NCBI GenBank assembly: GCA_016222815.1
Contig: JACRQE010000002.1
Location: 62,001-126,000 of the forward strand
Source of the DNA: Candidatus Uhrbacteria bacterium
GTDB taxonomy: Bacteria > Patescibacteriota > Patescibacteriia > 2-12-FULL-60-25
Reading direction: 5' to 3'
DNA length: 64,000 nucleotides
Shown in pieces: positions 48,199 through 61,706 of this stretch (positions are counted from its first letter, which is position 1; every line of letters begins with the position of its first letter). The notes below the pieces were generated by a model. It was not told where the DNA came from. It ran no database searches and worked only from the letters and a program-made list of their open reading frames with translations. A program made the translations under genes and the position numbers.

Positions 48199-48717
48199 TT
48201 AATCCGCGACCAGGATGAGGAGATTCCCCTCCTCGTCGAAGCCGAGGGGGAAGTTGCCAGCGACGAAGAGGTTGAGGAGTGGCTTGAACTTGGCGGCTTC
48301 GTCGGGTTTGCCGGCAAGGATGTAACCGCAAGCAAAGAAGAGCGATTCCCAAAGCGGATCATAGTCCCAGTTCACATCCGGCAAAATGAGCGAGTCCGCG
48401 AGCGAGTACGCGAGCGAGTTCCAGAGCGAGTCCGCGAGCGAGTCGTGGAGCGAGTGGTGGAGCGAATTCCGGAGCGACCTAACAAGCGAGTTGTGGAGCG
48501 AGTCGTGGAGCGAGTACCAACCTTTGAATATCCTCACGCCTTGAATTTCTCTCCAGTGGATTGCGCTCTTGGCCTGCTCTTCCACATCGGGCAAGACAGG
48601 TTTGCGCTCTTCTTTCCAACCGTAGAATGGCTGGAGGATTTCCATCAGAGTCGCGCCCTTACCCGGGAAGCGCTCCTCCCAGAAAGCCAAGTGCTTCTCG
48701 AATCCCACGTCTTCCAT
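48199..48717 (-). CDS. GNxPxGFD-family hypothetical protein with SLxx tetrapeptide array
   Basis: 172 residues. The N-terminus LAFWEERFPGKGATLMEIL and the C-terminus AGNFPLGFDEEGNLLILVAD are shared with three nearby genes. The middle carries about eleven tandem four-residue units of the form S-L-x-x (SLHDSLHNSLVRSLRNSL and on). These make a 12-base DNA periodicity. ATG 48717 has AAAGGAG upstream. Function unknown; the repeat may form an amphipathic helix or solenoid. Confidence 0.75.
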   Translation of the reverse strand: MEDVGFEKHLAFWEERFPGKGATLMEILQPFYGWKEERKPVLPDVEEQAKSAIHWREIQGVRIFKGWYSLHDSLHNSLVRSLRNSLHHSLHDSLADSLWNSLAYSLADSLILPDVNWDYDPLWESLFFACGYILAGKPDEAAKFKPLLNLFVAGNFPLGFDEEGNLLILVAD

Positions 48718-48777
48718 GGTACGAACTCCTTTTTACCGCGAACCTCGCGGACGGATGCGTCGAAATGACGATTTGGG

Positions 48778-48806
48778 AATCTACCACATTTTGGCCATTT
48801 CGTCAA
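48778..48806 (-). promoter_or_regulatory. Promoter of the gene at 48199, duplicated at 50459
   Basis: Minus strand TTGACG, 17 bases, TAGATT. The whole leader down to AAAAAGGAGTTCGTACC-ATG closely matches that of 49847-50398. Confidence 0.65.
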
Positions 48807-48820
48807 TCCCCACGGTGCGA

Positions 48821-48908
48821 AAAACGCCGCATGTAGGTCGCACGCGGCGTTTGTGTTTCGTAGGGGCAAGGCACGCCTTGCCCAGGGCGACGCATGCGTC
48901 GCCCCTAC
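48821..48908 (-). repeat. Composite palindromic repeat, copy B
   Basis: Same two-part element as 48108-48195; immediately downstream of the gene at 48912. Confidence 0.8.
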
Positions 48909-48911
48909 CGG

Positions 48912-49634
48912 TCAATCCGCGACCAGGACGAGGAGATTCCCATCCCGGTCGAACCCGACAGGCAAATTTCCGGCGAGCCAGAGCTCAAAGAACGGCCTGA
49001 ACTTGGCAGCTTCTTTCCCATTCCCCGCAATCGCGAAACTGCAGGCATGAACAAGAGTAAATTGTAGCGAATCAAGGAGCGGGAAGCTGAGTGAATCCGA
49101 ATAGTGGGTATATATCGAGCGGTAGAGCAAGCTCCACACCAGATCGCGAACGACATCTTCGAGCGCTCCCCGGTAGGAGTCATGGGGCAGTTCCTGAAGC
49201 GTGTCCTTGAGCGAGTCGCTCAACGAATCCCTGACCGAGTGGTTGAACTTTTCCCGAAGCGAAAAAACGATGCACCTGATCCCTTTGAACTTCCTCCAGA
49301 AGACAGCGTCCTTGGCACGTTTTTCCAAGTCAGGCAACGCCGGCTTGAGCTCGGGTCGCCAACTGCATAGAGGTCCGACGACCTCCATGAGCGCTGCGCC
49401 CTTGCCGAAAAATAGCTTTTCCCAGAAAGCGAGATCCTTACCCGCCGCTGGTGAGGGAGGTGGAGACGGTTCTTCTGGTTCTTGCGTCACTACCTCTTCT
49501 TTCGGTGCTCGGGCCGTCTTCTTCTTGCCGTACTTCCGGATGATGGCTTGCGCTTCATCGAAGTCGATCTGGCGCGAGACCAACATGGAGACGATGCGTC
49601 CGATCTGGTCTTGGGTGGCTCTTTTCCTTGTCAT
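48912..49634 (-). CDS. GNxPxGFD-family hypothetical protein with N-terminal extension
   Basis: 240 residues from ATG 49634. An N-terminal region (1-45) looks like a small helical domain (ATQDQIGRIVSMLVSRQ) and is followed by a Pro/Glu linker. The family core is LAFWEKLFFGKGAALMEVV, a degenerate SLxx array (HSVRDSLSDSLKDTL) and AGNLPVGFDRDGNLLVLVAD. Function unknown. Confidence 0.7.
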   Translation of the reverse strand: MTRKRATQDQIGRIVSMLVSRQIDFDEAQAIIRKYGKKKTARAPKEEVVTQEPEEPSPPPSPAAGKDLAFWEKLFFGKGAALMEVVGPLCSWRPELKPALPDLEKRAKDAVFWRKFKGIRCIVFSLREKFNHSVRDSLSDSLKDTLQELPHDSYRGALEDVVRDLVWSLLYRSIYTHYSDSLSFPLLDSLQFTLVHACSFAIAGNGKEAAKFRPFFELWLAGNLPVGFDRDGNLLVLVAD

Positions 49635-49846
49635 GGTGCGATCTCCATTGTTCCGCCAGGACAATCCGCTGTGGCCATTGGCCGAGGCTTGATTTGCGTC
49701 TTGGCAGGTGGAGCTTCCGCGTTCCGCGCGGCCGGTTCGGCGGAAAGCCGATAATTCTACTTACAGCAAAAAGATAGTCCGGTCAATTCTCTGATACGCA
49801 AACGCCGTGGCGAAGAAACCACGGCGTAGGAGACAGAAAACGAACA

Positions 49847-50398
49847 TCAATCCGCGACCAGGACGAGGGAATTATCGTATCCCTTGTCGAACAGGATCGG
49901 ACAGTTGCCCGCGCGCCAAAGTTCGAAAAGCGTCGCGTATTTCGCGGCCTGCTCCGGCTCCCCGAGGAGGATATGGGAACAGGGATACATGAGGATGGAA
50001 CCGAGCGGCCCAAATCCTTCCGAGTCGAAAAACGTCTCACCGAACGCTTCATCACATGCTTCGCCGAGGGCATCTCCGAACGTGAGTTTCATCGATGCTC
50101 CTGACCAGCCCTTGAGACTCAGGGGAGTGTCATCCAGCGCGCCATCGAGCGAATCGTAGTACAGGTCCCACAACTCCTTATCGCGCGATTTCGGAAATGC
50201 CTTCACGCCGAAACCGTGGTTGAACCAAGGCGACAATGCCGCCCTGACCCGCGCTTCCAGATCCGGCAACGCCGGTTTGAGCTCCGGCTTCCAGCCGTAG
50301 AACGGTCCGAGGATATCCAGCAGGGCGGCGCCCTTGCCAGGGAAACGCTTTTCCCAGAAGGCCAAACGCCCGGCGAAATCTTGGTCTGTGCTTTCCAT
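49847..50398 (-). CDS. GNxPxGFD-family hypothetical protein
   Basis: 183 residues. Family core LAFWEKRFPGKGAALLDIL and GWKPELKPALPDLE; the C-terminus has AGNCPILFDKGYDNSLVLVAD. The SLxx region has decayed to SLDGALDDTPLSL. ATG 50398 shares leader and Shine-Dalgarno with 48199-48717, pointing to a recent duplication that included the promoter. Confidence 0.7.
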   Translation of the reverse strand: MESTDQDFAGRLAFWEKRFPGKGAALLDILGPFYGWKPELKPALPDLEARVRAALSPWFNHGFGVKAFPKSRDKELWDLYYDSLDGALDDTPLSLKGWSGASMKLTFGDALGEACDEAFGETFFDSEGFGPLGSILMYPCSHILLGEPEQAAKYATLFELWRAGNCPILFDKGYDNSLVLVAD

Positions 50399-50458
50399 GG
50401 TACGAACTCCTTTTTACCGCGCGCCGCGCGGCCGGATGCGTCGAATTGACGATTGACG

Positions 50459-50487
50459 AATCTATCACATTCAGACCATTTCGTCAA
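50459..50487 (-). promoter_or_regulatory. Promoter of the gene at 49847
   Basis: Minus strand TTGACG, 17 bases, TAGATT; a near-copy of 48778-48806. Confidence 0.65.
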
Positions 50488-50501
50488 TCCTGGAGGTACT
50501 G

Positions 50502-50589
50502 AAAACGCCGCATGCAGGATGCACGCGGCGTTTGTGTTTCGTAGGGGCAAGGCACGCCTTGCCCAGGGCGACGCATGCGTCGCCCCTAC
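50502..50589 (-). repeat. Composite palindromic repeat, copy C
   Basis: Same element as copies A and B; immediately downstream of the gene at 50593. Confidence 0.8.
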
Positions 50590-50592
50590 CGG

Positions 50593-51147
50593 TCAATCCG
50601 CGACCAGGACGAGGATGTTCCTCTCCTCCTTGTTGAAGCCGACCGGGAAGTTGCCGACGAGGAAAAGGTCGAGGAACGGCTTGTACTTAAGGGCTGCATC
50701 CAGCCGCTCTTCCGAAAAGATATCCTGACAAGCCCAGAAGAGCACGTCCAACAACGACCACCTGACGAAGGAGTGCGTGTCAGGGAGCAAGCCCCAGGCT
50801 GTCTTCTTTTCAAGATCACTCCTGATCAGGCTCTCGATCCTGTCGTCAGGCGCATCCCAGATGGAACCGCCACGCAGCCTCAGGCCGAGATCGCCCTCGC
50901 CACTCAGAGCTGACACCTCGTCGACTGTGTGGACCAGGTGGATGCCCTTGGCCCAGTGCAGTTCCCGCAGTTCCCGTGTTCGCTGTTCCAGGTCGGGCGA
51001 CGCCGGTTTGCATTGGGTGTTGCATTCATAGTAGGGCCAGAGGAACTCCAACAACCTGGCTCCATCTATCGTGTTGTCCCACAATTCCTTGCTCACACTC
51101 TCCCAACTAGCCAAAAGCTCCAGATAGCGAGGATTTCTGTTCTCCAT
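50593..51147 (-). CDS. Divergent GNxPxGFD-family hypothetical protein
   Basis: 184 residues from ATG 51147 (AAGGAAGG upstream). It keeps the ends of the family (LLASWESVSKEL, CKPASPDLEQRTREL, and VGNFPVGFNKEERNILVLVAD), but the middle lacks the SLxx array. Own promoter TTGACA-16-TATCTT. Function unknown. Confidence 0.65.
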   Translation of the reverse strand: MENRNPRYLELLASWESVSKELWDNTIDGARLLEFLWPYYECNTQCKPASPDLEQRTRELRELHWAKGIHLVHTVDEVSALSGEGDLGLRLRGGSIWDAPDDRIESLIRSDLEKKTAWGLLPDTHSFVRWSLLDVLFWACQDIFSEERLDAALKYKPFLDLFLVGNFPVGFNKEERNILVLVAD

Positions 51148-51277: not shown

Positions 51278-52195
51278 ATGCTCGTCACCACCAAAAAACT
51301 GCTCGTGCCGGCGCGGGCCAAGAAATACGCGGTCCCGGCGTTCAACGTCAACGATTTGGAGTTTTTGAAAGCCGTGATGTCGGCGGCAGAGAAAATGAAG
51401 TCGCCGGTCATCGTGCAGACTTCGGAAGGCGCCATCGAATATGCCGGATTGGATTATCTTGTTGCCATGATTCGCGTGGCGGCAAAGGGAAAAATCCCGG
51501 TGGCCATGCATGTTGACCACGGCAAGGATCTGAAGACCATCAAAGCCGCGCTCGACGCCGGATATTCTTCCGCCATGTTCGACGGTTCGTCGCTCCCCTA
51601 TGCCGAAAATGTGAAGAAGACACAACAGGTCGTGAAATGGGCGCGGGCCAAGGGAGCGTCGGTGGAAGCGGAGATCGGGGCGATTGCAGGTATCGAGGAT
51701 TTCGTGAGCGTGGAAGAGAAGGATGCGCATTTGACGAATCCGGCGCAAGCGCTCGAGTTCGCGAAAGAGACGGGATGTGACGCTTTGGCCATCGCCATCG
51801 GCACGGCGCACGGCGCGTACAAGTTCAAGGGAAAAACCCACTTAGACATCGACCGATTGAAGAAAATCGCCAAACTCGTGAAGGTGCCGCTCGTGCTTCA
51901 CGGCGCATCGGGAGTATTGGAGGACGTGGTTAAAATTGCGGAACATCATGGCGCCAAGCTCGGTTCAGCGCGCGGAGTATTGGACTCGGACATCAAGCAA
52001 GCAATCAAATACGGAGTAGCAAAAATAAACATCGACACGGATTTGCGCCTGGCGTTCACGGCCGGCATCCGCGAGGCGGTGGATGAGATGCCGAAAGTCA
52101 TAGACCCGCGAAAGTTGATGGAGCCGGCCAATCTTTTGATGAGGGAAGTCGCGATGCGGAAGATGAAACTTTTCGGGAGCGCCGGACGGGCTTAA
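51278..52195 (+). CDS. fba: Class II fructose-bisphosphate aldolase
   Basis: 305 residues. YAVPAFNVNDLEFLKAV, AMHVDHGKDLKTIKAALDAGYSS (shown as AMHVDHGKDL), MFDGSSLPYAENV, the zinc-binding EAEIGAIAG, IGTAHGAYK, LVLHGASG and INIDTDLRLAF are all class II signatures. Zn-dependent cleavage or synthesis of fructose-1,6-bisphosphate or a related ketose bisphosphate. ATG 51278 is preferred over GTG 51269. Confidence 0.93.
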   Translation: MLVTTKKLLVPARAKKYAVPAFNVNDLEFLKAVMSAAEKMKSPVIVQTSEGAIEYAGLDYLVAMIRVAAKGKIPVAMHVDHGKDLKTIKAALDAGYSSAMFDGSSLPYAENVKKTQQVVKWARAKGASVEAEIGAIAGIEDFVSVEEKDAHLTNPAQALEFAKETGCDALAIAIGTAHGAYKFKGKTHLDIDRLKKIAKLVKVPLVLHGASGVLEDVVKIAEHHGAKLGSARGVLDSDIKQAIKYGVAKINIDTDLRLAFTAGIREAVDEMPKVIDPRKLMEPANLLMREVAMRKMKLFGSAGRA

Positions 52196-52200
52196 ACATA

Positions 52201-52440
52201 GGTCCCCCGGTTGAACCGGGGGATGACACATGTGCTAGGGAATCCTTCGACAAGCTCAGGAATTATCAGTCCCTGAATTTGTCGAGAGTTTTTTATTTCG
52301 CGTTCGTCACATTTCATTACACATTTTACCCGCTTGCCTTGACAAAGCCCACAAAACGGGCTTAATTATAGGACTTCGTCAATTTCTACGTAGGTAGCCC
52401 TTCGACAGGCTCAGGGAATAGCAATTCCCGAATTTGACGA
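52201..52440 (+). repeat. Intergenic cluster of dispersed short repeats
   Basis: It holds cccccggttgaaccggggga (52203 on; relatives at 16888 and near 38801), and two cttcgaca(a/g)gctcagg units (52247 and 52397). An imperfect inverted repeat (ggacttcgtcaatttc near 52371 and gaatttgacgaaggcc near 52431) could fold the leader of the downstream operon. Confidence 0.6.
52339..52367 (+). promoter_or_regulatory. Promoter of the JAB-E1-Ubl operon
   Basis: TTGACA, 17 bases, TTAATT. The spacer contains the inverted repeat agccc / gggct. A leader of about 100 bases with a strong potential hairpin precedes AAGGAG and the ATG at 52471. Confidence 0.65.
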
Positions 52441-52470
52441 AGGCCCTTTGGACAATAAGGAGAAAAGCTG

Positions 52471-53697
52471 ATGGGCGAACCCACGTTGTTCATCTACCGC
52501 GACGCCGATGACCCGCTGCCCAAGGACCCGGATTGCGTGATTCTGGGCCGCAACGGCGCTTTCCGCCATACCGCTACCGGCCTGTTCAGCCGATTCGAAA
52601 AGGCCGACGAAATACCCACGCTGGCCGAACAGGCCATGGAGGCCGTGTACCTTCTGCCTCCCCTGCCGGCGGCCATGACTCAGCAGGTGCTCAACTTCTT
52701 CCGCGAAGTGTACCGGCGCTACCACAGCGAAGCGATCGTGCTCTTGGCCTACAACCAAGCGACACAGGAGTTCGCGATCGTGGCGCCCAAGCAGGATGTG
52801 TCAGCCGGCCACTGCAAATACGAACCCAACACGGCGGTACCGAACGGCTTCATGCTGGTCGGTACGATCCACAGCCACGGCAGTTTCGGCGCCCACCATT
52901 CGGGGACCGACGTGCACGACGAAGAGTCTTTCGACGGCGTACACGTGACCTACGGCGACGTGGGTTCGGAACTCATCTCGGTCGTGGCGTCGCTCGCCGT
53001 ATCCGGTTGCCGCTTCCAGCTGGAGCCGGAACGGGTACTCGGCGGCCTGCGTTTCGTCAAAACAGAGGAACCGGAGACCGGGAAAGACACCGAGCCGGCC
53101 AAGCGAGAACCGCGTACGGGCATTGCCTTCGGGATCTGGCAGACGATCCTGGAGGGATTCGGCATCTGGAAGCCGCAGATCGAGGCGAAGAGCCGCATCC
53201 TCAATTACGCGAGTTCGGGATATGCCGTGGACTTGCCGGAAGAAGACGCCAAGCGCGCAGAACCGGATGAGGAGTGGTACAAACTCGTCACTGACGGTCG
53301 GCCTGCCATGGTGTACCACAGCACGATCTACGGCTATCCAGGCTACTTGAACCGGGACTATATCGATGACGACGACCTCGGCATCCGTATCCCCGGCCAC
53401 ATGCAGCCCCAGCCCGGCCGCAAGACAAAGAGAACCGCAATCAGGCGCACCATGGATTTGGCCGCACCTCCCGACACGACACCGCAATTCGAATCCGACG
53501 GGTACGGCGGACTGTTCCCGGATGACTGCATGGAGAGGTTCGTGGTGGCCAGGCGAAGTTTGGGCGAGACAGGAAGCGTGGAAGCCGAAAAAATGCGTAA
53601 TCCTGCGACACTCAAACCCTTGACTGGCGGGCCGGAGACTGGTAAGGAAAAAGCAGAACCTTTGACACCGGCCAACAAGGCCACAGAGGAGGACTGA
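52471..53697 (+). CDS. JAB/JAMM-domain metallopeptidase, PRTRC protein A-like
   Basis: 408 residues. An N-terminal domain (about 1-80: CVILGRNGAFRH, LLPPLPAAMTQQVLNFF) precedes a JAB domain with a complete JAMM zinc site, H134-S-H136, Ser144 and Asp147 (TIHSHGSFGAHHSGTD), then DGVHVTYGDVG. JAMM peptidases remove or mature ubiquitin-like tails. The layout, including LPPLP and a Q.....Y.P strand before the zinc site, matches PRTRC protein A. A 200-residue C-terminal extension has no recognised motif. First gene of an operon; the E1 gene starts three bases after its stop. Confidence 0.85.
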   Translation: MGEPTLFIYRDADDPLPKDPDCVILGRNGAFRHTATGLFSRFEKADEIPTLAEQAMEAVYLLPPLPAAMTQQVLNFFREVYRRYHSEAIVLLAYNQATQEFAIVAPKQDVSAGHCKYEPNTAVPNGFMLVGTIHSHGSFGAHHSGTDVHDEESFDGVHVTYGDVGSELISVVASLAVSGCRFQLEPERVLGGLRFVKTEEPETGKDTEPAKREPRTGIAFGIWQTILEGFGIWKPQIEAKSRILNYASSGYAVDLPEEDAKRAEPDEEWYKLVTDGRPAMVYHSTIYGYPGYLNRDYIDDDDLGIRIPGHMQPQPGRKTKRTAIRRTMDLAAPPDTTPQFESDGYGGLFPDDCMERFVVARRSLGETGSVEAEKMRNPATLKPLTGGPETGKEKAEPLTPANKATEED

Positions 53698-53700
53698 CGC

Positions 53701-54438
53701 ATGCAGGCCATCATCATCGGCTGCGGCGGCATCGGAAGCCACTTGGCAGGGCCACTCGCCCGCTACCTCGAATCGCTCGGTCCCGGACACAAACTGACGC
53801 TCGTGGACGGCGACAACTTCGAGGACCGCAACAAGACGCGGCAGGTCTTTGACCGGCCGGGCAACAAAGCCCAATCCGTGGCGGCCAAGCTGGCCGAAAG
53901 CCACCCCGGACTCACGGTCGACGCGGTGCCCGAGTTCATCAAACCGGACAACGCCGAGTTCATCCTGGACGAAGGCGTTTACGTGATGCTGTGCGTGGAC
54001 AACCATCCGACGCGCAAGCTGGTGTCCGAAGCGGCGGCAAGCTACCAGGACATCGCGGTCATCTCGGGAGGCAACGAGCTCGAGGACGGCATGGTCCAAA
54101 TCTACGTCCGCAAGGGCGGCGTGGACGCTACCCCGCCCCTGACCCACGACCATCCGGAAATCGCGGACCCTAAAGGCAAGGCGCCGTACGAAATGAGCTG
54201 CGAAGAACTGGCCAAGGCCGGCACGCCGCAGATCATCTTCGCCAACCTGACGGCAGCCGTGCTCATGGCCAACGCCTTTTGGCGCTTGAGCACGGATCCC
54301 GAAGGATTCCTGACGAAAACGATCGGCAAAGGCGAGTTCGCACTCGAGACCGCCTACACCGAAGTCGCATTCAACATCGGGCTGAACAAAGTCCGTCCGC
54401 GCCGGACGGCAGTGACCACAGGAGGTGATGCAGCATGA
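53701..54438 (+). CDS. E1/ThiF-like adenylating enzyme, PRTRC ThiF-type
   Basis: 245 residues. Rossmann nucleotide loop AIIIGCGGIGSHLAG, LTLVDGDNFEDRNKTRQVF with the conserved Asp/Asn/Arg, LCVDNHPTRKLV, and a candidate thioester Cys in PYEMSCEELAKAGTPQ, followed by the FANLTAAVLMANAFW helix. It should adenylate the C-terminus of the ubiquitin-like protein encoded next, whose start overlaps its stop by four bases. The terminal GGDAA is encoded by the next gene's Shine-Dalgarno and is not a ubiquitin-like tail. Confidence 0.88.
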   Translation: MQAIIIGCGGIGSHLAGPLARYLESLGPGHKLTLVDGDNFEDRNKTRQVFDRPGNKAQSVAAKLAESHPGLTVDAVPEFIKPDNAEFILDEGVYVMLCVDNHPTRKLVSEAAASYQDIAVISGGNELEDGMVQIYVRKGGVDATPPLTHDHPEIADPKGKAPYEMSCEELAKAGTPQIIFANLTAAVLMANAFWRLSTDPEGFLTKTIGKGEFALETAYTEVAFNIGLNKVRPRRTAVTTGGDAA

Positions 54439-54866
54439 ACAGAAAGTACACCCGACAGGAACTCAAGGATCTGGGTCCGACAGGCCTCTACAAGCTCGGC
54501 AAGGATGAGCTGAAGATCCCGGGCCTCGCGTCCATGAGCGACGAAGAGATCGCCAACACGGTGGTCGCGCACCTGGATGCGAAGGGCCTGCTCCTCCAAG
54601 ACGCAGCTCCGCAGACCGCCGCGGCTACAGCGGCTGTCCCGATCCCGGCCGAGGTCAACGTCTCGTACCCGCCGTACGAGACGTCCGGCAACTACGCGGG
54701 CAAGAGCTTGGCCGAGATCTACGACCAGCTGCGCGAGCCGTGGAGCATGGCCAACAACGTCCGCTGTTTCATCAACGGACAAACGGCCAACATCTCGCAT
54801 GCCACCATGCTCAAGGCCGGCGACCGAGTGGAGTTCGGCAAGCCCGCGGGCGAGAAGGGCGACTGA
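54435..54866 (+). CDS. Ubiquitin-like protein with N-terminal helical domain, PRTRC protein C-like
   Basis: 143 residues. Residues 1-52 form a small helical domain (TRQELKDLGPTGLYKLGKDE, MSDEEIANTVVAHL), reminiscent of Rho-N/SAP/LEM folds. An Ala/Pro linker leads to a beta-grasp-sized C-terminal domain (about 88-143) with SLAEIYDQLREPWSMANNV, FINGQT and LKAGDRVEFGKPAGEKGD. PRTRC C proteins end in G-x-KG. Here one extra Asp follows EKG, so JAB trimming may be needed before E1 activation. No GG tail. Confidence 0.72.
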   Translation: MNRKYTRQELKDLGPTGLYKLGKDELKIPGLASMSDEEIANTVVAHLDAKGLLLQDAAPQTAAATAAVPIPAEVNVSYPPYETSGNYAGKSLAEIYDQLREPWSMANNVRCFINGQTANISHATMLKAGDRVEFGKPAGEKGD

Positions 54867-54899
54867 CAGCGCGGGAGCCACGCCCGCATCCTTGAACCA

Positions 54900-54932
54900 C
54901 AACCCCCGATCCAACCTGGATCGGGGGTTTTC
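54900..54932 (+). terminator. Terminator of the JAB-E1-Ubl operon
   Basis: 13-bp stem aacccccgatcca / tggatcgggggtt followed by TT. Confidence 0.85.
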
Positions 54933-55013
54933 TGTTGCTGGAGGCGTCAGTTCATGAGTATATCGAAGGATTTCCGGCGTGTCCTTGGATTACACATTTT
55001 TGGGCCAAAAGGC

Positions 55014-55042
55014 TTGACAACATGGGTTATTTGCACTAGGTT
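55014..55042 (+). promoter_or_regulatory. Promoter of the E2-like/pseudo-JAB unit
   Basis: TTGACA, 17 bases, TAGGTT. The hexamers and spacing equal those at 8461-8489. Confidence 0.65.
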
Positions 55043-55113
55043 AACCCATCCTGCGGACGCGATTTGCGCCCAACCAGGACGGACATCGAAAATTGAGAAA
55101 GAGGAGACAGAAG

Positions 55114-58086
55114 ATGGCGAAAGAAGAAACACGCAACATCATCCTGGCCCAGGACGGCACGGCGACATACGAACGTCGGCTCCGGGTGAACGGAAAACCG
55201 GACCAACCGGCGCGCGAACGGGTCATGGAGACCAAACGCGTGGATGCGGCGGCACTCATCCCGGATTACGGCGAACTCATGGTCTTGCCGACCAACTGCC
55301 GCTTCATGCGGAGCGAGGAAGGTACGGCCGTGTTCGTCACCGAAGAACCGCCGGCATTGAGGACCGTGACCTGGCATACCGATGTCGGGGACACGGATTA
55401 CTACGAAGCGATCCGCGAACGGCTGCGCCGGAGCCAACACCATCGCCTGCTCGGCTTGAGCAAGCAGGAATTCGGCAGGCTGCTCAAAACCCAGCAGACG
55501 TTCCGGCTGGCGTTCCCCTACATCATCAAGATCTACGTCTTCAACCAAAGGTTCTTCAAGGGAGGCTGGCTGTATTTCAGGACCCAGCCGCTCACGAGCG
55601 AGCGGGACGGACTCCTGGTCTCCTGCTTGCCCAACCTGCAGGTGAACGACGGTCACATGTGCCTGACCGACCGGGTCCGCGCCATGGCCATGGGCGACAT
55701 GAATTACGCCCAGTACGTGGATGCCGTGGAGCTGGAATTCTGGTCAAGCCCGTGGAACGACCACTGGATCGAGACATTCCACGATTACGCGAAGCGCGTG
55801 CCTGAAATCGCTTCGCCGTGGGAATGGGAATACAACTCACGTGTGGACTCGAGCTTCATCCTGCGCTTGCCCTGGAGAGGCTGGGAGACGACGGTCGGCG
55901 AGCAGGTGCGGATCAGACTGGCCAACAGAGCAGAGGATACCGACACGTTCAAGTACTTCGAGACCCGCGTCAGGACAGCCGAGGCGTATGAGATCAAGCC
56001 GGCGGTGACCGTAGGCGCGACAAAACCGAGTCCGCTCCAGCGCCTGTTCCTGAACGATGGCGTAATCCTGGCCATCGGCGACCAGATATCGTTCCGGCGC
56101 AGGACGTTCGACAGCATCGCGACTGACAGGAAGTACGAGATCGAATGGTTCGGCCGGATGGATCGCAACGGCAACCGCAACGTGAAACTCAAAGACGTGG
56201 AAAAGCCCTTGCCGCTCGTGACCGACGGCTTACTGCACAGCGTGGTTCAGATCGCTCCCCCGGCGGCGCCGCCTCCGATGGAACTGACCGAGGGTGTGAT
56301 GCTCGGACAAGGTTCGATCCTGCGCTTCAAGTCCAACAACGACTGGGGCGACCTGGAGAACCGCTACTTCGCCATCGAAGAAGCGCGACGAGGCCCGCGC
56401 GGCGTCATCCTGGTCAGGCTCGCAGGAAAGAAAGAGCCGATTCCGGTGGGTGAGTTCGAGGAACTCTACCCGGGCGTCAGACTGCTTGCCGGAAAGAACG
56501 GCGAAGAGCAGACGATCGAGCTGGATGACGGAACCGTGCTCGCGGTCGGCGACGAACTCGCCTACTACGACGGTCGGACGTACGCGGAATCGATAATCAA
56601 GTCCTTCACGCCCGTGGGAAACGGCGTCAAAAGGCGCATACTGGTCATGGAAAACGGGAGGGAGCTGGAAGCCGAAACGGACAAAGGTACGTTCGGCAAC
56701 TGGTTCGCCAAGACGGCAGACTGCCGGAAGACCGAGATTACGGTCGGAAAGACGGTCATCCGACCGGGCGACAGCTTCAAGTGGCCCGAAGGGAACCTGA
56801 CGATCGATGCATTGGCGCAGTTCGGGCCGGACCGATCAGTCTTCGGCCTCAAGGGCAACAAGACATGGATCATGTTGGCCATGAACGGAAAGTTCGTCCA
56901 GGGCGTCAAACCCGTCATCAAGCCCAAGCTCGACGGCGCCAACCTGGTCATTGGCCACGAGACCTACGAACCTGGATACGCGTTCTTCGACAAGGAAGCG
57001 TGCCGGGTACGTGTGGCCGCATCTTACGGCATCCGCATTTGGTCTTCGGTCGCACTGGTGGAAGCCAACGGCAAAGAAATCGAATTCGCCAAAGACGGCG
57101 AGATGGTCAACCACCTCGAACGTGTCGACCTGACGCTCCAACTGCCTGACGGCCGGGAGATCCACCGCGGACAAAGACTGCGTCTCACGACCGACATCCA
57201 GGACTTCAAGGCCGGCAAGCGATTCGCAGTCTCGCACATCCAGCGAGACGGGAAGAAACTGGTCGTCCTGTCCGAAGGCCTGGGCTTCGAAGCCACGGCC
57301 GAGAACCTGACGTACTTCGAAGAACGGCGGGGAACCGAGTGGCGGTTGCTGGCAGACCTGCCAGAGAAACCGGCGCCCAAGCCACGAAAGAAAGTCCATC
57401 CGAAGTTTGGCGAGCGCTGCGCGGTTAGGTACTTGGGCGGCGACGCGTCGAACAGGTTCATCGAACTGGGCAGTGAAGAGACGGCCAAGACCCTGCCGGC
57501 AAAAATCGTGGACTGGAGATCGGAGGATCTCGCCAAGGTCGATTTCGGACAACGCTTTCCCGGAACGCACTGCGGTAATTGCGGAAACTGCGGCGGAAGC
57601 TGCGCTTGGATCAGCACGAAGTACCTGGTGAAGAACCTGGGAGGCTTGGATGGTCCGGCCCTCATGGAACTCGAGCGGGTATTTTACAAGCACGGCGGGG
57701 GCGCGCGATTTGTCCAATCCGTCGGGATGATCGTGGCCAGGGATGCGGGAGAGACGCCAATCCGCATAGGCGACCGGGTGAAAATCAGAAATATCGGCAA
57801 TCCGAGAGGGCTGCCGAACAGTGAGGTCGAAGGCCGGTACGAGAAGGGCCAAAGGAAGTTTTTGGCCGGTGCGGCATTCACGGTGGTCCATGCCGGCGAC
57901 AACTCGGCCGGGACATGGCTTTACCTGGATGCAGGCGAAGATGTCGGGTCGCCAGACAGAAGCCGGGATGACTTGATCGGATTGGGCGAAATCCCGAGTG
58001 AACTCCGGCAGGATAAAACGTGGTGGGCCAGACTGATCTACGTCCTGTCCCACTGCGTAGTCGTTGAACAAAGCAAGGGAGGCTGA
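55114..58086 (+). CDS. Giant E2-like protein with repeated beta modules and a Cys cluster
   Basis: 990 residues from ATG 55114, where GAGGAG is seven bases upstream; the TTG at 55093 is rejected. Residues about 90-250 look like a prokaryotic E2: a hydrophobic IIKIYVFNQRF strand, SCLPNLQVNDGHMCL with a candidate active Cys183, then ELEFWSSPWNDHW. This matches the PxxN...DGxxC...W...S pattern of PRTRC B/Prok-E2 families. About six tandem modules of 65-78 residues follow (313-740), each opening like DGVxLxxGDxxxF and probably forming small beta barrels. A C-x2-C-x2-C-x3-C cluster (CGNCGNCGGSC, about 820-830) precedes a last module (IRIGDRVKIRN). Confidence 0.65.
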   Translation: MAKEETRNIILAQDGTATYERRLRVNGKPDQPARERVMETKRVDAAALIPDYGELMVLPTNCRFMRSEEGTAVFVTEEPPALRTVTWHTDVGDTDYYEAIRERLRRSQHHRLLGLSKQEFGRLLKTQQTFRLAFPYIIKIYVFNQRFFKGGWLYFRTQPLTSERDGLLVSCLPNLQVNDGHMCLTDRVRAMAMGDMNYAQYVDAVELEFWSSPWNDHWIETFHDYAKRVPEIASPWEWEYNSRVDSSFILRLPWRGWETTVGEQVRIRLANRAEDTDTFKYFETRVRTAEAYEIKPAVTVGATKPSPLQRLFLNDGVILAIGDQISFRRRTFDSIATDRKYEIEWFGRMDRNGNRNVKLKDVEKPLPLVTDGLLHSVVQIAPPAAPPPMELTEGVMLGQGSILRFKSNNDWGDLENRYFAIEEARRGPRGVILVRLAGKKEPIPVGEFEELYPGVRLLAGKNGEEQTIELDDGTVLAVGDELAYYDGRTYAESIIKSFTPVGNGVKRRILVMENGRELEAETDKGTFGNWFAKTADCRKTEITVGKTVIRPGDSFKWPEGNLTIDALAQFGPDRSVFGLKGNKTWIMLAMNGKFVQGVKPVIKPKLDGANLVIGHETYEPGYAFFDKEACRVRVAASYGIRIWSSVALVEANGKEIEFAKDGEMVNHLERVDLTLQLPDGREIHRGQRLRLTTDIQDFKAGKRFAVSHIQRDGKKLVVLSEGLGFEATAENLTYFEERRGTEWRLLADLPEKPAPKPRKKVHPKFGERCAVRYLGGDASNRFIELGSEETAKTLPAKIVDWRSEDLAKVDFGQRFPGTHCGNCGNCGGSCAWISTKYLVKNLGGLDGPALMELERVFYKHGGGARFVQSVGMIVARDAGETPIRIGDRVKIRNIGNPRGLPNSEVEGRYEKGQRKFLAGAAFTVVHAGDNSAGTWLYLDAGEDVGSPDRSRDDLIGLGEIPSELRQDKTWWARLIYVLSHCVVVEQSKGG

Positions 58087-58091
58087 CCAAG

Positions 58092-58946
58092 ATGTTCCCT
58101 CTGCAACTCAAACGGACGACTGACCAGCCGGCACCGACGGGACAGATAACCTACATCGCGGCCAAGAACGGCATCTTCATGCACAAGCGCACGGCCGTGT
58201 TCGCGGCTACGGTCAGGGCCAAGGAATTGCCCATGCTGTTGACGGTGCCGTCGGGGCTGGAGTTCAACCTCCCGCCCCTGCCGGCAGTGCATGCGGCCTA
58301 CCTGCTGGACTTCTTCCAGCAGGCGAGGAACCTGACCGAATGCACACCCGTGGTCATGCTCTGGCACAAGGCGGGCAAGGGTTACCAAATCCAAATCCCG
58401 ATACAGACTTCGGGCTACAACAGGACGACGCTGGCGTACGAGCCGAACTTCAAAGCCTTCGAAGAACAGGATGTCAGCTTCGTCGGCATCGCGACGGCAA
58501 TACCCTACTACCGGAACGCGACATCAGCGGTCGACGAACTGGTAGCCAAGCTGCCGAAGCCGCTGCTCATCCTGGCCTACCGCCTAGACAGCCCGAACAA
58601 ACTCAACCTGGAAGCGCTAGTCCAGGTCGAGAGCCAAGGACTTCTGCACATCAGAGCGCAGAAAGTCGTCAGCGGATTGGTCGAGGTCAAGGAAGGCGCG
58701 GGCGGACCAGGAACTTTCGTGTCAGTGAACCACGCCAGGACCCACGACCGCATCGTCCTGCCGAAAGAACATGCGGACGCCGTGATCAAGGCGCCGCACA
58801 AGTGGCTCGAGCGGGTCCGGGTGAACCGCTGGGACTCACGGGTCGGCCGCATGGCCGACGTTCCGATCACCGAGATCCCAAGCCTGTACAGCTACAGCGG
58901 ACCGCCGAAGTTCGTTGCACGGTACTGCACCAAGCCTCACAAGTGA
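58092..58946 (+). CDS. JAB-like protein lacking the JAMM zinc ligands (pseudo-JAB)
   Basis: 284 residues, five bases after the E2-like gene. It aligns along its first 160 residues with the active JAB at 52471: NGIFMHKRTAVF to NGAFRHTATGLF, NLPPLPAVHAAYLLDFF to LLPPLPAAMTQQVLNFF, LAYEPN to CKYEPN. At the zinc site VGIATAIPYY replaces VGTIHSHGSF, so both His are lost, and the Ser/Asp pair is also gone. It is probably a non-catalytic binder of the ubiquitin-like protein or partner of the active JAB. The C-terminal half is not recognised. Confidence 0.72.
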   Translation: MFPLQLKRTTDQPAPTGQITYIAAKNGIFMHKRTAVFAATVRAKELPMLLTVPSGLEFNLPPLPAVHAAYLLDFFQQARNLTECTPVVMLWHKAGKGYQIQIPIQTSGYNRTTLAYEPNFKAFEEQDVSFVGIATAIPYYRNATSAVDELVAKLPKPLLILAYRLDSPNKLNLEALVQVESQGLLHIRAQKVVSGLVEVKEGAGGPGTFVSVNHARTHDRIVLPKEHADAVIKAPHKWLERVRVNRWDSRVGRMADVPITEIPSLYSYSGPPKFVARYCTKPHK

Positions 58947-58963
58947 CCGCACCTTAGACTCTT

Positions 58964-58997
58964 ACCCCCACGCCTATCGGAAAGGCGTGGGGGTTTC
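58964..58997 (+). terminator. Terminator of the E2-like/pseudo-JAB unit
   Basis: 12-bp stem acccccacgcct / aggcgtgggggt followed by TT and more T-rich sequence. Confidence 0.85.
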
Positions 58998-59847: not shown

Positions 59848-60696
59848 ATGAACGAGAGCACTGCTCTGACCCACGCCGAAACCGACAGCAAGTCCGACGA
59901 AGCGCTGGCCGAGGAGGCGAAAGCCCACCTGGCACAGCACCCCGAACTGCAGACCGTGGTCGAGTTCATCCAGGTCATCCGGAATGTCGACCTGACGGAG
60001 CTCAATGCCGAAAAGCGACGGGCCCTGTTGCCCGCTACCGAACGCATGCATGCGCTGACCCAGCGGAGGGATCTGCGGGGAACGGCGACGTCGGTCCTGA
60101 CCCGCGTCCCCGAGGACGCGGCTTACGGGATGTCCCCGGACTTCCAGGCTTCGCTCATCAACCAGGTGGTGGACGCCTGCAAGACGACCGAGGACTTCGA
60201 CAAGGCGTTCGCGCCCGAAGACCTGGCGGTCTACGTGGACGGAGCGCTCCTCATGCACAGCCACTGGGCGCAGTTCCGCTGGGAGCAGGATGATGATCCG
60301 CACCGCGACGTGGTGGCGAGCTTCATCGAATCCCTCCTGGCCGACCGTGAGGGGTACGTCCTGGACGGGAAGTCCGTGGAACTCGAGTCCATCCTGAAGC
60401 CCTGGGATGTCCTGAACGTGATCGACGTGGACGTGCTGCTCGACTGCTTGCCGCGCGAGATCCAGAAGAAGCTGTTCAAGGCGTGGCACACCTGGGAAGC
60501 GCAGCACGTGGACGAGGCATGGCACGCCCTGGACTACATCGATATCGCGACGCCGCGGATCTTGGTCCAGCACATCAAGCTGGCGGACCTGAAGGGCGTG
60601 GTGATGCTCGGGATGGAGCGCATGGGTTTCGTGCCGAAGCAGAAACCGGCGGAAGACAAGCCGGCGGAAGCGGAAGAGCAAAACCCAAAAGCATAG
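59848..60696 (+). CDS. Hypothetical protein (zero-frame product), possible frameshift partner
   Basis: 282 residues; start supported by AAAAAGGAC. Acidic and helical, with a Trp/His-rich middle (ALLMHSHWAQFRWEQDDD) and a charged Lys/Pro/Glu tail (KQKPAEDKPAEAEEQNPKA) at the stop. The last codons contain CCCAAAA (60684-60690) in the phase C-CCA-AAA, two codons before TAG. A -1 shift there would join it to the next frame, giving about 619 residues. Confidence 0.65.
   Translation: MNESTALTHAETDSKSDEALAEEAKAHLAQHPELQTVVEFIQVIRNVDLTELNAEKRRALLPATERMHALTQRRDLRGTATSVLTRVPEDAAYGMSPDFQASLINQVVDACKTTEDFDKAFAPEDLAVYVDGALLMHSHWAQFRWEQDDDPHRDVVASFIESLLADREGYVLDGKSVELESILKPWDVLNVIDVDVLLDCLPREIQKKLFKAWHTWEAQHVDEAWHALDYIDIATPRILVQHIKLADLKGVVMLGMERMGFVPKQKPAEDKPAEAEEQNPKA
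60684..60690 (+). promoter_or_regulatory. Candidate -1 ribosomal frameshift heptamer
   Basis: CCCAAAA fits X-XXY-YYZ exactly in the zero frame and is followed by GCA-TAG. GC-rich sequence able to pair lies a few bases downstream (gtccggggg...). Confidence 0.5.
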
Positions 60697-61706
60697 AAGC
60701 GTCCGGGGGTATCGAAACCGGTCCGCCCGAAGTGGCGGCCGGCCAAGCGCCCCAGGACGCCGATGCGCTACCTTCCGCAGAACTCGGCGACGACGACCTG
60801 GAATGGGTCGACGGAGAGAAAGGGAATGACCTTGCCGAGACGGTCAGGCCTGAAGCCCTGCCGACAGACGGACCGGCATCACCTGACGCAACCCAACCGG
60901 CGGCAGACGCAAGCCTGGTCAGCAATGACTGGGCGAGCCCTCCGATCAAGGATGAGCTGAGCGAAGTCCAGGCGACAGGCTCATCCCGCGACTTGCCGGG
61001 CGTGGATCCCGAGGCCAGCGCGGTGGTGGAACTCGCGTTCGAAGAGATGACGAAGAAACCTGCACCGGAGTCGCCGGACTTGAGCGCCACGATCACCGTG
61101 GAAGAGGCGGATGGCGACGAGGTCGACGATGACAGCCAGTTCGAAGACTCGCCCCAAACGCCGAGCGATCAGACTACCGCTGGTGGCGAGGGTACCAACC
61201 TCTCCAAAGAGATTCCGGAACGCGAGAAGAGCGACCCGGCGACTCTCCAAGTCAGGGAGGCGAGCTGCATTCCGATCAGCGACTTCGACAACGCACCGCG
61301 TGCGCCCGGAGCCAGCGTGCCGCCGCCGGACGAGAAGAGGTCGGCACAATCGCTCATGGCCATCTCGACGCTGATCAAGCTCGCGGACATGGTCGGGCAT
61401 CAGCTCTCGGAAGAGAATCAGTCCATGGACGACGCCCATGTTGCGGCGCTCAAGACCCTGCTCATCGACGGCAAGTGGCCGGAGGACGAAGACTTGGCAC
61501 GCGGCGCCATCATCGCCCTGATGATCGAAATGCATCCCTTCTACGCCAAACAGCGCAAGAAGTGGCCTGATAAGCCGTTCGCGGAGCTGCGCAGATTGCT
61601 CCTCGACGAGCTGGGCAAGAGCAAGATTCCGCCGCTCAAGCGGTTGGCCAAGGTCCTTTCCGCAGTCCCGCCGCCCATACCCAAGAGCGTGCGGCCCAAC
61701 AAGTAG
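60690..61706 (+). CDS. Hypothetical protein in the -1 frame, no start codon of its own
   Basis: 338 codons to TAG 61704-61706. The frame continues the acidic, Pro/Ala/Glu/Asp-rich character of the preceding tail. It ends in a compact helical domain (about the last 110 residues: LMAISTLIKLADMVGHQL, GAIIALMIEMHPFYAKQR, FAELRRLLLDELGKS). There is no ATG near the junction; the first clear in-frame ATG is near 61047. It is either made by -1 frameshifting or reflects a sequencing error joining one gene. Confidence 0.55.
   Translation, partial: SIEASGGIETGPPEVAAGQAPQDADALPSAELGDDDLEWVDGEKGNDLAETVRPEALPTDGPASPDATQPAADASLVSNDWASPPIKDELSEVQATGSSRDLPGVDPEASAVVELAFEEMTKKPAPESPDLSATITVEEADGDEVDDDSQFEDSPQTPSDQTTAGGEGTNLSKEIPEREKSDPATLQVREASCIPISDFDNAPRAPGASVPPPDEKRSAQSLMAISTLIKLADMVGHQLSEENQSMDDAHVAALKTLLIDGKWPEDEDLARGAIIALMIEMHPFYAKQRKKWPDKPFAELRRLLLDELGKSKIPPLKRLAKVLSAVPPPIPKSVRPNK

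Follow-up and report, generated by a model that had tools for sequence, protein, structure and literature searches.

The locus and its genes

We analysed a 64,000-nucleotide stretch of a Candidatus Uhrbacteria genome (assembly GCA_016222815.1, contig JACRQE010000002.1, positions 62,001 to 126,000), hereafter called the window, in which five genes on the forward strand encode a JAB/JAMM metallopeptidase, an E1-type adenylating enzyme, a ubiquitin-like protein (Ubl), an E2-like giant and a second, JAB-derived protein. This cassette very probably is a complete module for Ubl conjugation and deconjugation, of the PRTRC core kind but of a separate lineage common to tailed phages and to chromosomes of the candidate phyla radiation (CPR). 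The reading is carried by what the sequence data show: which genes are present and occur together, their homology and conserved catalytic residues, the predicted fold of the Ubl, the insertion, and the linkage to phages. A full E1/E2/Ubl/JAB set had been recognised in the original prediction, made from the letters of the window, and profile matches together with conserved catalytic residues bear this out. The window alone could not show that tailed phages are the chief carriers of the cassette. The features of the locus, all on the forward strand, are the following (aa, amino acids).

52196-58995, inserted island, delimited by same-genus genomes without the cassette
52338-52372, promoter-like TTGACA...TTAATTATA upstream of unit 1, read from the sequence
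52471-53697, JAB/JAMM metallopeptidase, 408 aa
53701-54438, E1 (ThiF-type adenylating enzyme), 245 aa, 3-base gap after JAB
54435-54866, Ubl, 143 aa, 4-base overlap with E1
54453-54581, N-terminal Rho_N-like two-helix domain of the Ubl (Rho_N matches of homologues, AlphaFold2)
54654-54839, beta-grasp of the Ubl (AlphaFold2/Foldseek)
54849-54863, Ubl tail GEKGD (conservation of the tail motif)
54901-54929, terminator-like hairpin ending unit 1, 13-pair stem followed by a T run (hairpin scan)
55013-55046, weak promoter-like site of unit 2, read from the sequence
55114-58086, E2 giant, 990 aa, with AGAGGAG, resembling a ribosome-binding site, upstream
about aa 59-270 of the E2 giant, Prok-E2_D-like domain with PN173-174 and Cys183 (55660-55662) (conservation, homologue profiles)
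about aa 305-990 of the E2 giant, predicted beta-barrel array (AlphaFold2)
58092-58946, JAB-derived protein without zinc site (pseudo-JAB), 284 aa, 5-base gap after E2
58964-58994, terminator-like hairpin ending unit 2 and the island, 12-pair stem followed by a T run (hairpin scan)

The five open reading frames (ORFs) lie where they had been placed before, including the 3-base gap and the 4-base overlap. Genes were called by codon usage; greedy calling of the longest ORF picked an antisense ORF of 450 aa over the JAB and E1 genes instead. The hairpins after the Ubl gene and after the last gene fit the two transcription units proposed earlier; overall, 12 terminator-like sites were found as compared with a shuffled mean of 9.1, i.e. 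slightly above background. Neither promoter-like site was reported by the consensus scan. The site before unit 2 (TTGACA, 17-base spacer and TAGGTT, 55014-55042) has a good -35 but a poor -10 element, which reduces the consensus promoter formerly claimed for this unit to half a consensus. Two copies of CCTTCGACA(A/G)GCTCAGG (52244-52260 and 52399-52415) bracket the island promoter at the insertion's left edge, and no further copy with two or fewer mismatches occurs in the window.

Components of the proposed conjugation pathway

The JAB peptidase is a distant homologue of PRTRC_A: it matches TIGR03735 with an E value of 1.5e-8, the 34.4 bits staying below the cut-off of 101.8, and Pfam Prok-JAB with 3.6e-5, also below cut-off, and PRTRC_A is matched by 26 of 28 members of the JAB family (best 2e-12). 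The catalytic motif HSHGSFGAHHSGTD (52870-52911, aa 134-147) has the JAMM form HxHx7SxxD, which was kept in 115 of 116 JAB homologues, the sole member without it being the pseudo-JAB of the same cassette. The latter is homologous to the N-terminal half of the JAB (aa 6-120; 30% identity over 119 aa, E 4e-10) and, judged by this alignment, is a true JAB homologue whose zinc site was lost. Thus the JAB-like protein of the original prediction is a real JAB homologue, but because the catalytic site is gone it is not a second removal enzyme. By analogy with eukaryotes, where MPN- subunits go together with MPN+ subunits, it is probably a non-catalytic partner with a structural or regulatory role. 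In three Uhrbacteria loci of the window's class (L015, L016 and L018) a second E2 giant that has lost the catalytic Cys lies downstream; taken together with the pseudo-JAB, several CPR versions of the cassette carry a dead paralogue after the active E2.

The E1 matches Pfam ThiF (2.8e-20) and, below cut-off, PRTRC_ThiF (7.5e-11; 41.8 bits, cut-off 144.75). Its family conserves GxGG, DGD, N44, R47, K56, D100 and Cys167, and Cys167 (54199-54201) was kept in 86 of 87 clade members. The protein has both the ATP-binding motif and the conserved Cys of an enzyme that activates a Ubl. The best curated matches of the E1 include MoeB/ThiF, the Ubl has a weak match to ThiS, and the first Foldseek match of the Ubl is a MoaD-type subunit of molybdopterin synthase. 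These similarities would suit sulfur transfer of the ThiF/ThiS type instead of protein tagging. We consider this very improbable, since the E1 is linked to a JAB peptidase and to an E2-like protein with a near-invariant Cys and a receptor-like array, and no thiamine or molybdopterin (Moco) genes, rhodanese, ThiG or MoaE were found among the genes scanned beside the cassette. The E1 itself has no rhodanese fusion.

In the AlphaFold2 model of the Ubl (pLDDT 89.4) an N-terminal two-helix domain is followed by a linker and a beta-grasp. The top Foldseek matches were MoaD, ubiquitin, SUMO and NEDD8 (prob 0.94-1.00 and TM by target 0.5-0.65 for most of them, E about 0.01), in agreement with the beta-grasp fold anticipated for the 143-residue protein. 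Rho_N was matched by 27 of 59 Ubl homologues (best 8.6e-10), the Ubl of the window itself not reaching significance. The tail motif [GAS]xK[GA] is present in 76 of 78 homologues; it is terminal in 52 and followed by 1-8 extra residues in 24, whose removal would be needed. At the same position PRTRC_C of pMOL28 reads RAAGAKG-AYAQI, with G-x-K-G as in the cassette Ubls. According to the model and the tail alignment, the Ubl is a beta-grasp modifier with a conserved C-terminal Gly.

The N-terminal domain of the E2 giant has homologues in almost all of the cassettes. Among these, Prok-E2_D was matched by 13 of 40 (best 2.5e-8) and PRTRC_B by 5 of 40 (4.6e-7), and the family profile matches an annotated 'prokaryotic E2 ligase family D' protein of a Cytobacillus plasmid (3e-16). 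Cys183 was kept in 98 and Asn174 in 93 of 102 homologues. The PN...C motif of the window protein is LPNLQVNDGHMCL, with a layout like that of the eukaryotic HPN...C motif, and PRTRC_B of pMOL28 has FNTWDHGRICIG in the same place. In the AlphaFold2 model a helix (117-126) is followed by four strands (129-134, 136-144, 147-156 and 166-168), the PN pair, the Cys and three helices (198-211, 220-228 and 235-244), and this predicted order appears to fit the UBC core. The rest of the protein is predicted as an array of many small beta barrels. Its only Foldseek match in the PDB below 0.001 was the KOW region of SPT5 (2.7e-5, prob 0.96), chain Z of that complex presumably being SPT5; weaker matches were HERC2, the KOW domain of KIN17 and tandem Tudor domains. 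A few columns of the array, including the GD pairs 322-323 and 886-887, are near-invariant across CPR and phage giants, and the fusion of E2 and array is accordingly old.

From these components we infer the following pathway. The JAB would cut off the residue or residues after the G-x-K-G tail of the Ubl, in the window a single Asp. The E1 would then adenylate the new C-terminus and hold the Ubl on Cys167, from where the thioester would move to the E2 domain and its Cys183. The substrate may be bound and presented by the barrel array of the same protein, making a separate E3 unnecessary, and the JAB could take the tag off again.

Several observations weigh against this reading. Neither the Ubl nor the E2 of the window gave a match above cut-off on its own, in profile searches and in Pfam, respectively. 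The Ubl tail has no GG, and in the literature searched, conjugation via a G-x-K-G tail was found demonstrated for no member. The 990-residue protein had been expected to show an E2 fold at its N-terminus; its family does match Prok-E2_D, but a Foldseek search of the model against the PDB returned no E2/UBC match, and the E2 alignment, used as a profile against the PDB, had chance matches only. The E2 assignment, with a UBC fold that is inferred, rests on the Prok-E2_D and PRTRC_B matches of homologues, the near-invariant PN...C motif and the predicted topology. Confidence in the array model was moderate, with large parts at pLDDT below 50.

Insertion, distribution and occurrence in tailed phages

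The window genome belongs to the same class as Uhrbacteria and Falkowbacteria metagenome-assembled genomes, in line with the CPR-type genome recognised earlier. None of three genomes of the same genus contains the five genes at this place. In one (G008) a homologue of the 282-aa ORF begins 145 bases after the aldolase gene, and in the two others (G006 and G007) the aldolase is followed by a gene of 207-209 aa and then by the 282-aa-ORF homologue. Therefore, the cassette was an insertion between aldolase and 265-aa ORF; three losses would explain the distribution less simply. The resident flanks defined by these comparisons are as follows.

51278-52195, left flank: aldolase
right of 58995, right flank: ORFs of 265, 282 and 395 aa

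The 265-aa ORF was considered as a cassette member and rejected, as its 209-aa homologue adjoins the aldolase in G007 (E 1e-6), which assigns it to the resident flank. The resident 282- and 395-aa ORFs (59848-61706) stay beside the aldolase throughout the genus but are unusually fast evolving, with about 30-35% identity across the genus as compared with 90-92% for the aldolase. At 48199-51147, on the reverse strand, lie four paralogues in tandem (172-240 aa, 25-44% identity) with C-terminal LVLVAD and repeat-rich middle regions, e.g. SLHDSLHNSL. Among the loci compared, their outside matches were only to repeat-type stretches of one ORF in a phage locus (L072).

Searched directly with the 990-aa E2, plasmids, phages, viral contigs and 40 other genomes of the family gave no match. 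A housekeeping role, which had been left as an option, is unlikely, because the five genes are an insertion that the three relatives in the genus lack and no E2 giant turned up in the 40 family genomes. E1 relatives occur in 9 of 380 other genomes of the class (about 2%) and in 4 of 379 other genomes of the phylum, the carriers including Uhrbacteria, Falkowbacteria and Moraniibacteriota. The co-occurrence of the genes in related genomes, named earlier as a check, was found at 10 of the 13 other CPR loci, where E2, JAB and Ubl accompany the E1. Of the remaining loci, L031 has E2, E1 and Ubl but gave no JAB match, another lies at a contig edge, and L029 (G483, contig C2) contains two tandem E2-JAB-E1 copies, with no Ubl behind the first and a seemingly broken one behind the second.

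A single-protein search of viral contigs with the E1 found no relatives, but with the E1 alignment as query 71 IMG/VR contigs were obtained, which belong to the same E1 clade. All four parts are present in 62 of these 71 loci, 60 of them have the order E2-JAB-E1-Ubl, and most of the others are cut near a contig end; JAB and E1 overlap by a median of 4 bases. A terminase match was found in 41 of 46 phage records tested, mostly to an ORF of 550-630 aa with E near 1e-35, while the same profile also matched 11 of 14 control bacteria, so that lone weak matches are no proof. Neighbour families are common to 54 phage loci. In the representative L098 they are SbcD, SbcC, a radical SAM protein, a second ThiF protein, RNA polymerase (RNAP) beta', RNAP beta and FolE2. 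Judged by gene content, the same kit is present in dozens of uncultured tailed-phage genomes, mostly of one lineage that carries it beside phage RNAP genes. When 50,697 deposited phage records were searched, the E2 giant of this lineage gave no match in tblastn, and its E1 gave two matches with E below 1e-8, at about 31% identity.

The second ThiF-like protein (about 290 aa; at 11844-12704 in L098, and present in 53 similar loci) follows the Ubl in RNAP-carrying phages. Its resemblance to the E1 is confined to the first 100 residues, and it may represent either a further E1 subunit or some other adenylating enzyme. In five other phages (L085, L089, L091, L093 and L094) three to four separate E2-like genes surround one JAB-E1-Ubl core, and the RNAP neighbourhood is absent on the stretch read. 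By its gene layout, this group looks like a case in which E2s diversified to serve several substrates.

CPR and phage E1s fall together in a single clade of the E1 tree (100/97), which excludes the E1s of PRTRC systems and of Gram-positive plasmids and phages; the nearest relative of the window sequence is L013 (100/99). The CPR members are not one clade (eight changes, at least two of them forced by starred branches), and thus a single acquisition by CPR is not favoured. The tree was rooted at its midpoint and gives no direction of transfer between phages and CPR. That the CPR copy is part of a provirus was considered and rejected, as contig C6 of the window genome had no terminase match; on the other CPR contigs with a cassette there was none either, except a weak one on G669:C18 (17 bits, E 5.3e-4).

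The cassette might alternatively be a PRTRC-type plasmid maintenance system relocated to the chromosome. For each of PRTRC A, B, C and ThiF the cassette has a homologue, as the PRTRC-like core proposed earlier implied. Such a relocation nevertheless seems hardly credible: the E1 clade is separate, the neighbours are phage or chromosomal genes, PRTRC_F had no match in the window genome (although the search gave no match in its controls either), and the only ParB-like match in that genome was below cut-off and on another contig (C8). In accordance with the earlier view, ParB, PRTRC E and PRTRC F were also not found among the cassette neighbours.

Possible roles and relation to known systems

Taking these data together, the best reading is a laterally moving, phage-shared module whose E2 would have its own substrate-receptor array. 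For the benefit to the CPR cell there are two leading options, defence and a role carried over from phages that acts on the machinery of transcription or repair.

Tentatively, a cassette captured from phages or plasmids might tag phage proteins and so protect the CPR cell. The sporadic presence in about 2% of class genomes, the insertion at a locus empty in relatives and the polyphyly of the CPR members make up the pattern of accessory defence or mobile cargo. There are also precedents in the Ubl systems of Bil (bacterial ISG15-like), which tag virion proteins, and of CBASS (PMC10097602; Hor et al. 2024, cited in PMC12660748). On the other hand, PADLOC gave only a generic ThiF similarity of the E1 to CBASS E1-E2 and no other match, the flanks of 12 CPR loci resemble housekeeping genes or generic ATPases with no clear defence island, and the commonest carriers are phages.

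If the phage-type function was kept, the module would in phages modify host or viral machinery for transcription or replication, and the CPR copies would regulate RNAP or nucleic-acid enzymes. We regard this as unlikely. The families shared by the phage neighbourhoods (see above), with SbcC, SbcD, both RNAP subunits and FolE2 in L098, the SPT5 KOW-like array and the Rho_N-like domain of the Ubl speak for it, but the adjacency of phage genes may reflect expression timing alone, no RNAP gene was noticed beside CPR copies, and KOW/Tudor matches have low specificity. A wider scenario, which is doubtful though slightly less so, has large tailed phages carrying the module beside their RNAP genes and using the E2 array to tag transcription and repair proteins, with repeated exchange with CPR and with inactive paralogues (the pseudo-JAB and the Cys-less E2 of the three related genomes) turned into regulators.

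The distribution of the phage-shared module suggests that bacterial viruses run a ubiquitin-like system of their own and share it with bacteria; if so, the exchange includes some of the smallest bacteria. Previously, full E1-E2-Ubl-JAB sets of prokaryotes were known on plasmids, on mobile elements and in defence loci. If confirmed, a substrate receptor fused to the E2 would offer a natural shortcut to the target, and the matched dead paralogues would allow the study of how MPN- and UEV-like partners arise. In the literature searched, which left most subscription papers outside, no such set was described as a module conserved within a phage lineage, and a comparative overview of 224 jumbo phages mentions no JAB or E1-like sets. 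In the same literature, the papers that name PRTRC do not deal with its mechanism, by title or abstract.

The core of PRTRC systems (A, B, C and ThiF, e.g. of pMOL28) shares with the cassette an N-terminally extended JAB, a ThiF-type E1, a small Ubl with G-x-K-G and, judged by homologues of the window protein, a Cys-bearing E2 of family D. An operon type with JAB-N+JAB, E1, Ubl, a helical protein and a Cys-containing E2 described by Iyer et al. 2006 (row 6d; PMC1779556) is probably of the PRTRC kind. The cassette differs in that its E2 is an 860-1000 aa fusion to the barrel array, the Ubl has an added Rho_N-like domain, the E1 has its own clade, and the carriers are phages and CPR chromosomes. 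With homologous core proteins that stay under the PRTRC cut-offs and with the other PRTRC genes missing, the cassette is, on sequence grounds, a divergent relative of PRTRC. The E2_D-JAB-ThiF sets of Bacillus and Cytobacillus plasmids and of Bacillus phage KLEB27-3 (L104, L107 and L112) have the same E2-JAB-E1 order, and all three were matched by the cassette profiles, but their E2 is small (about 250-270 aa) and without array, the E1 lies outside the phage/CPR clade, and the Ubl is weakly recognised.

Bil and type II CBASS (Cap2/Cap3) resemble the cassette in the logic of Ubl conjugation and removal by E1, E2 and peptidase. Their E1 and E2 come from other families and have different partners, a CD-NTase in CBASS; as observed earlier, no CD-NTase was present among the genes scanned beside the cassette, and the similarity to Bil and CBASS is that of the generic ThiF part of the E1. 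Finally, the JAMM deSAMPylases of Borgs provide another case of large mobile elements using JAMM peptidases against Ubl tags, but whereas expanded removal enzymes were described for Borgs (PMC12660748), the elements studied here carry the whole tagging pathway.

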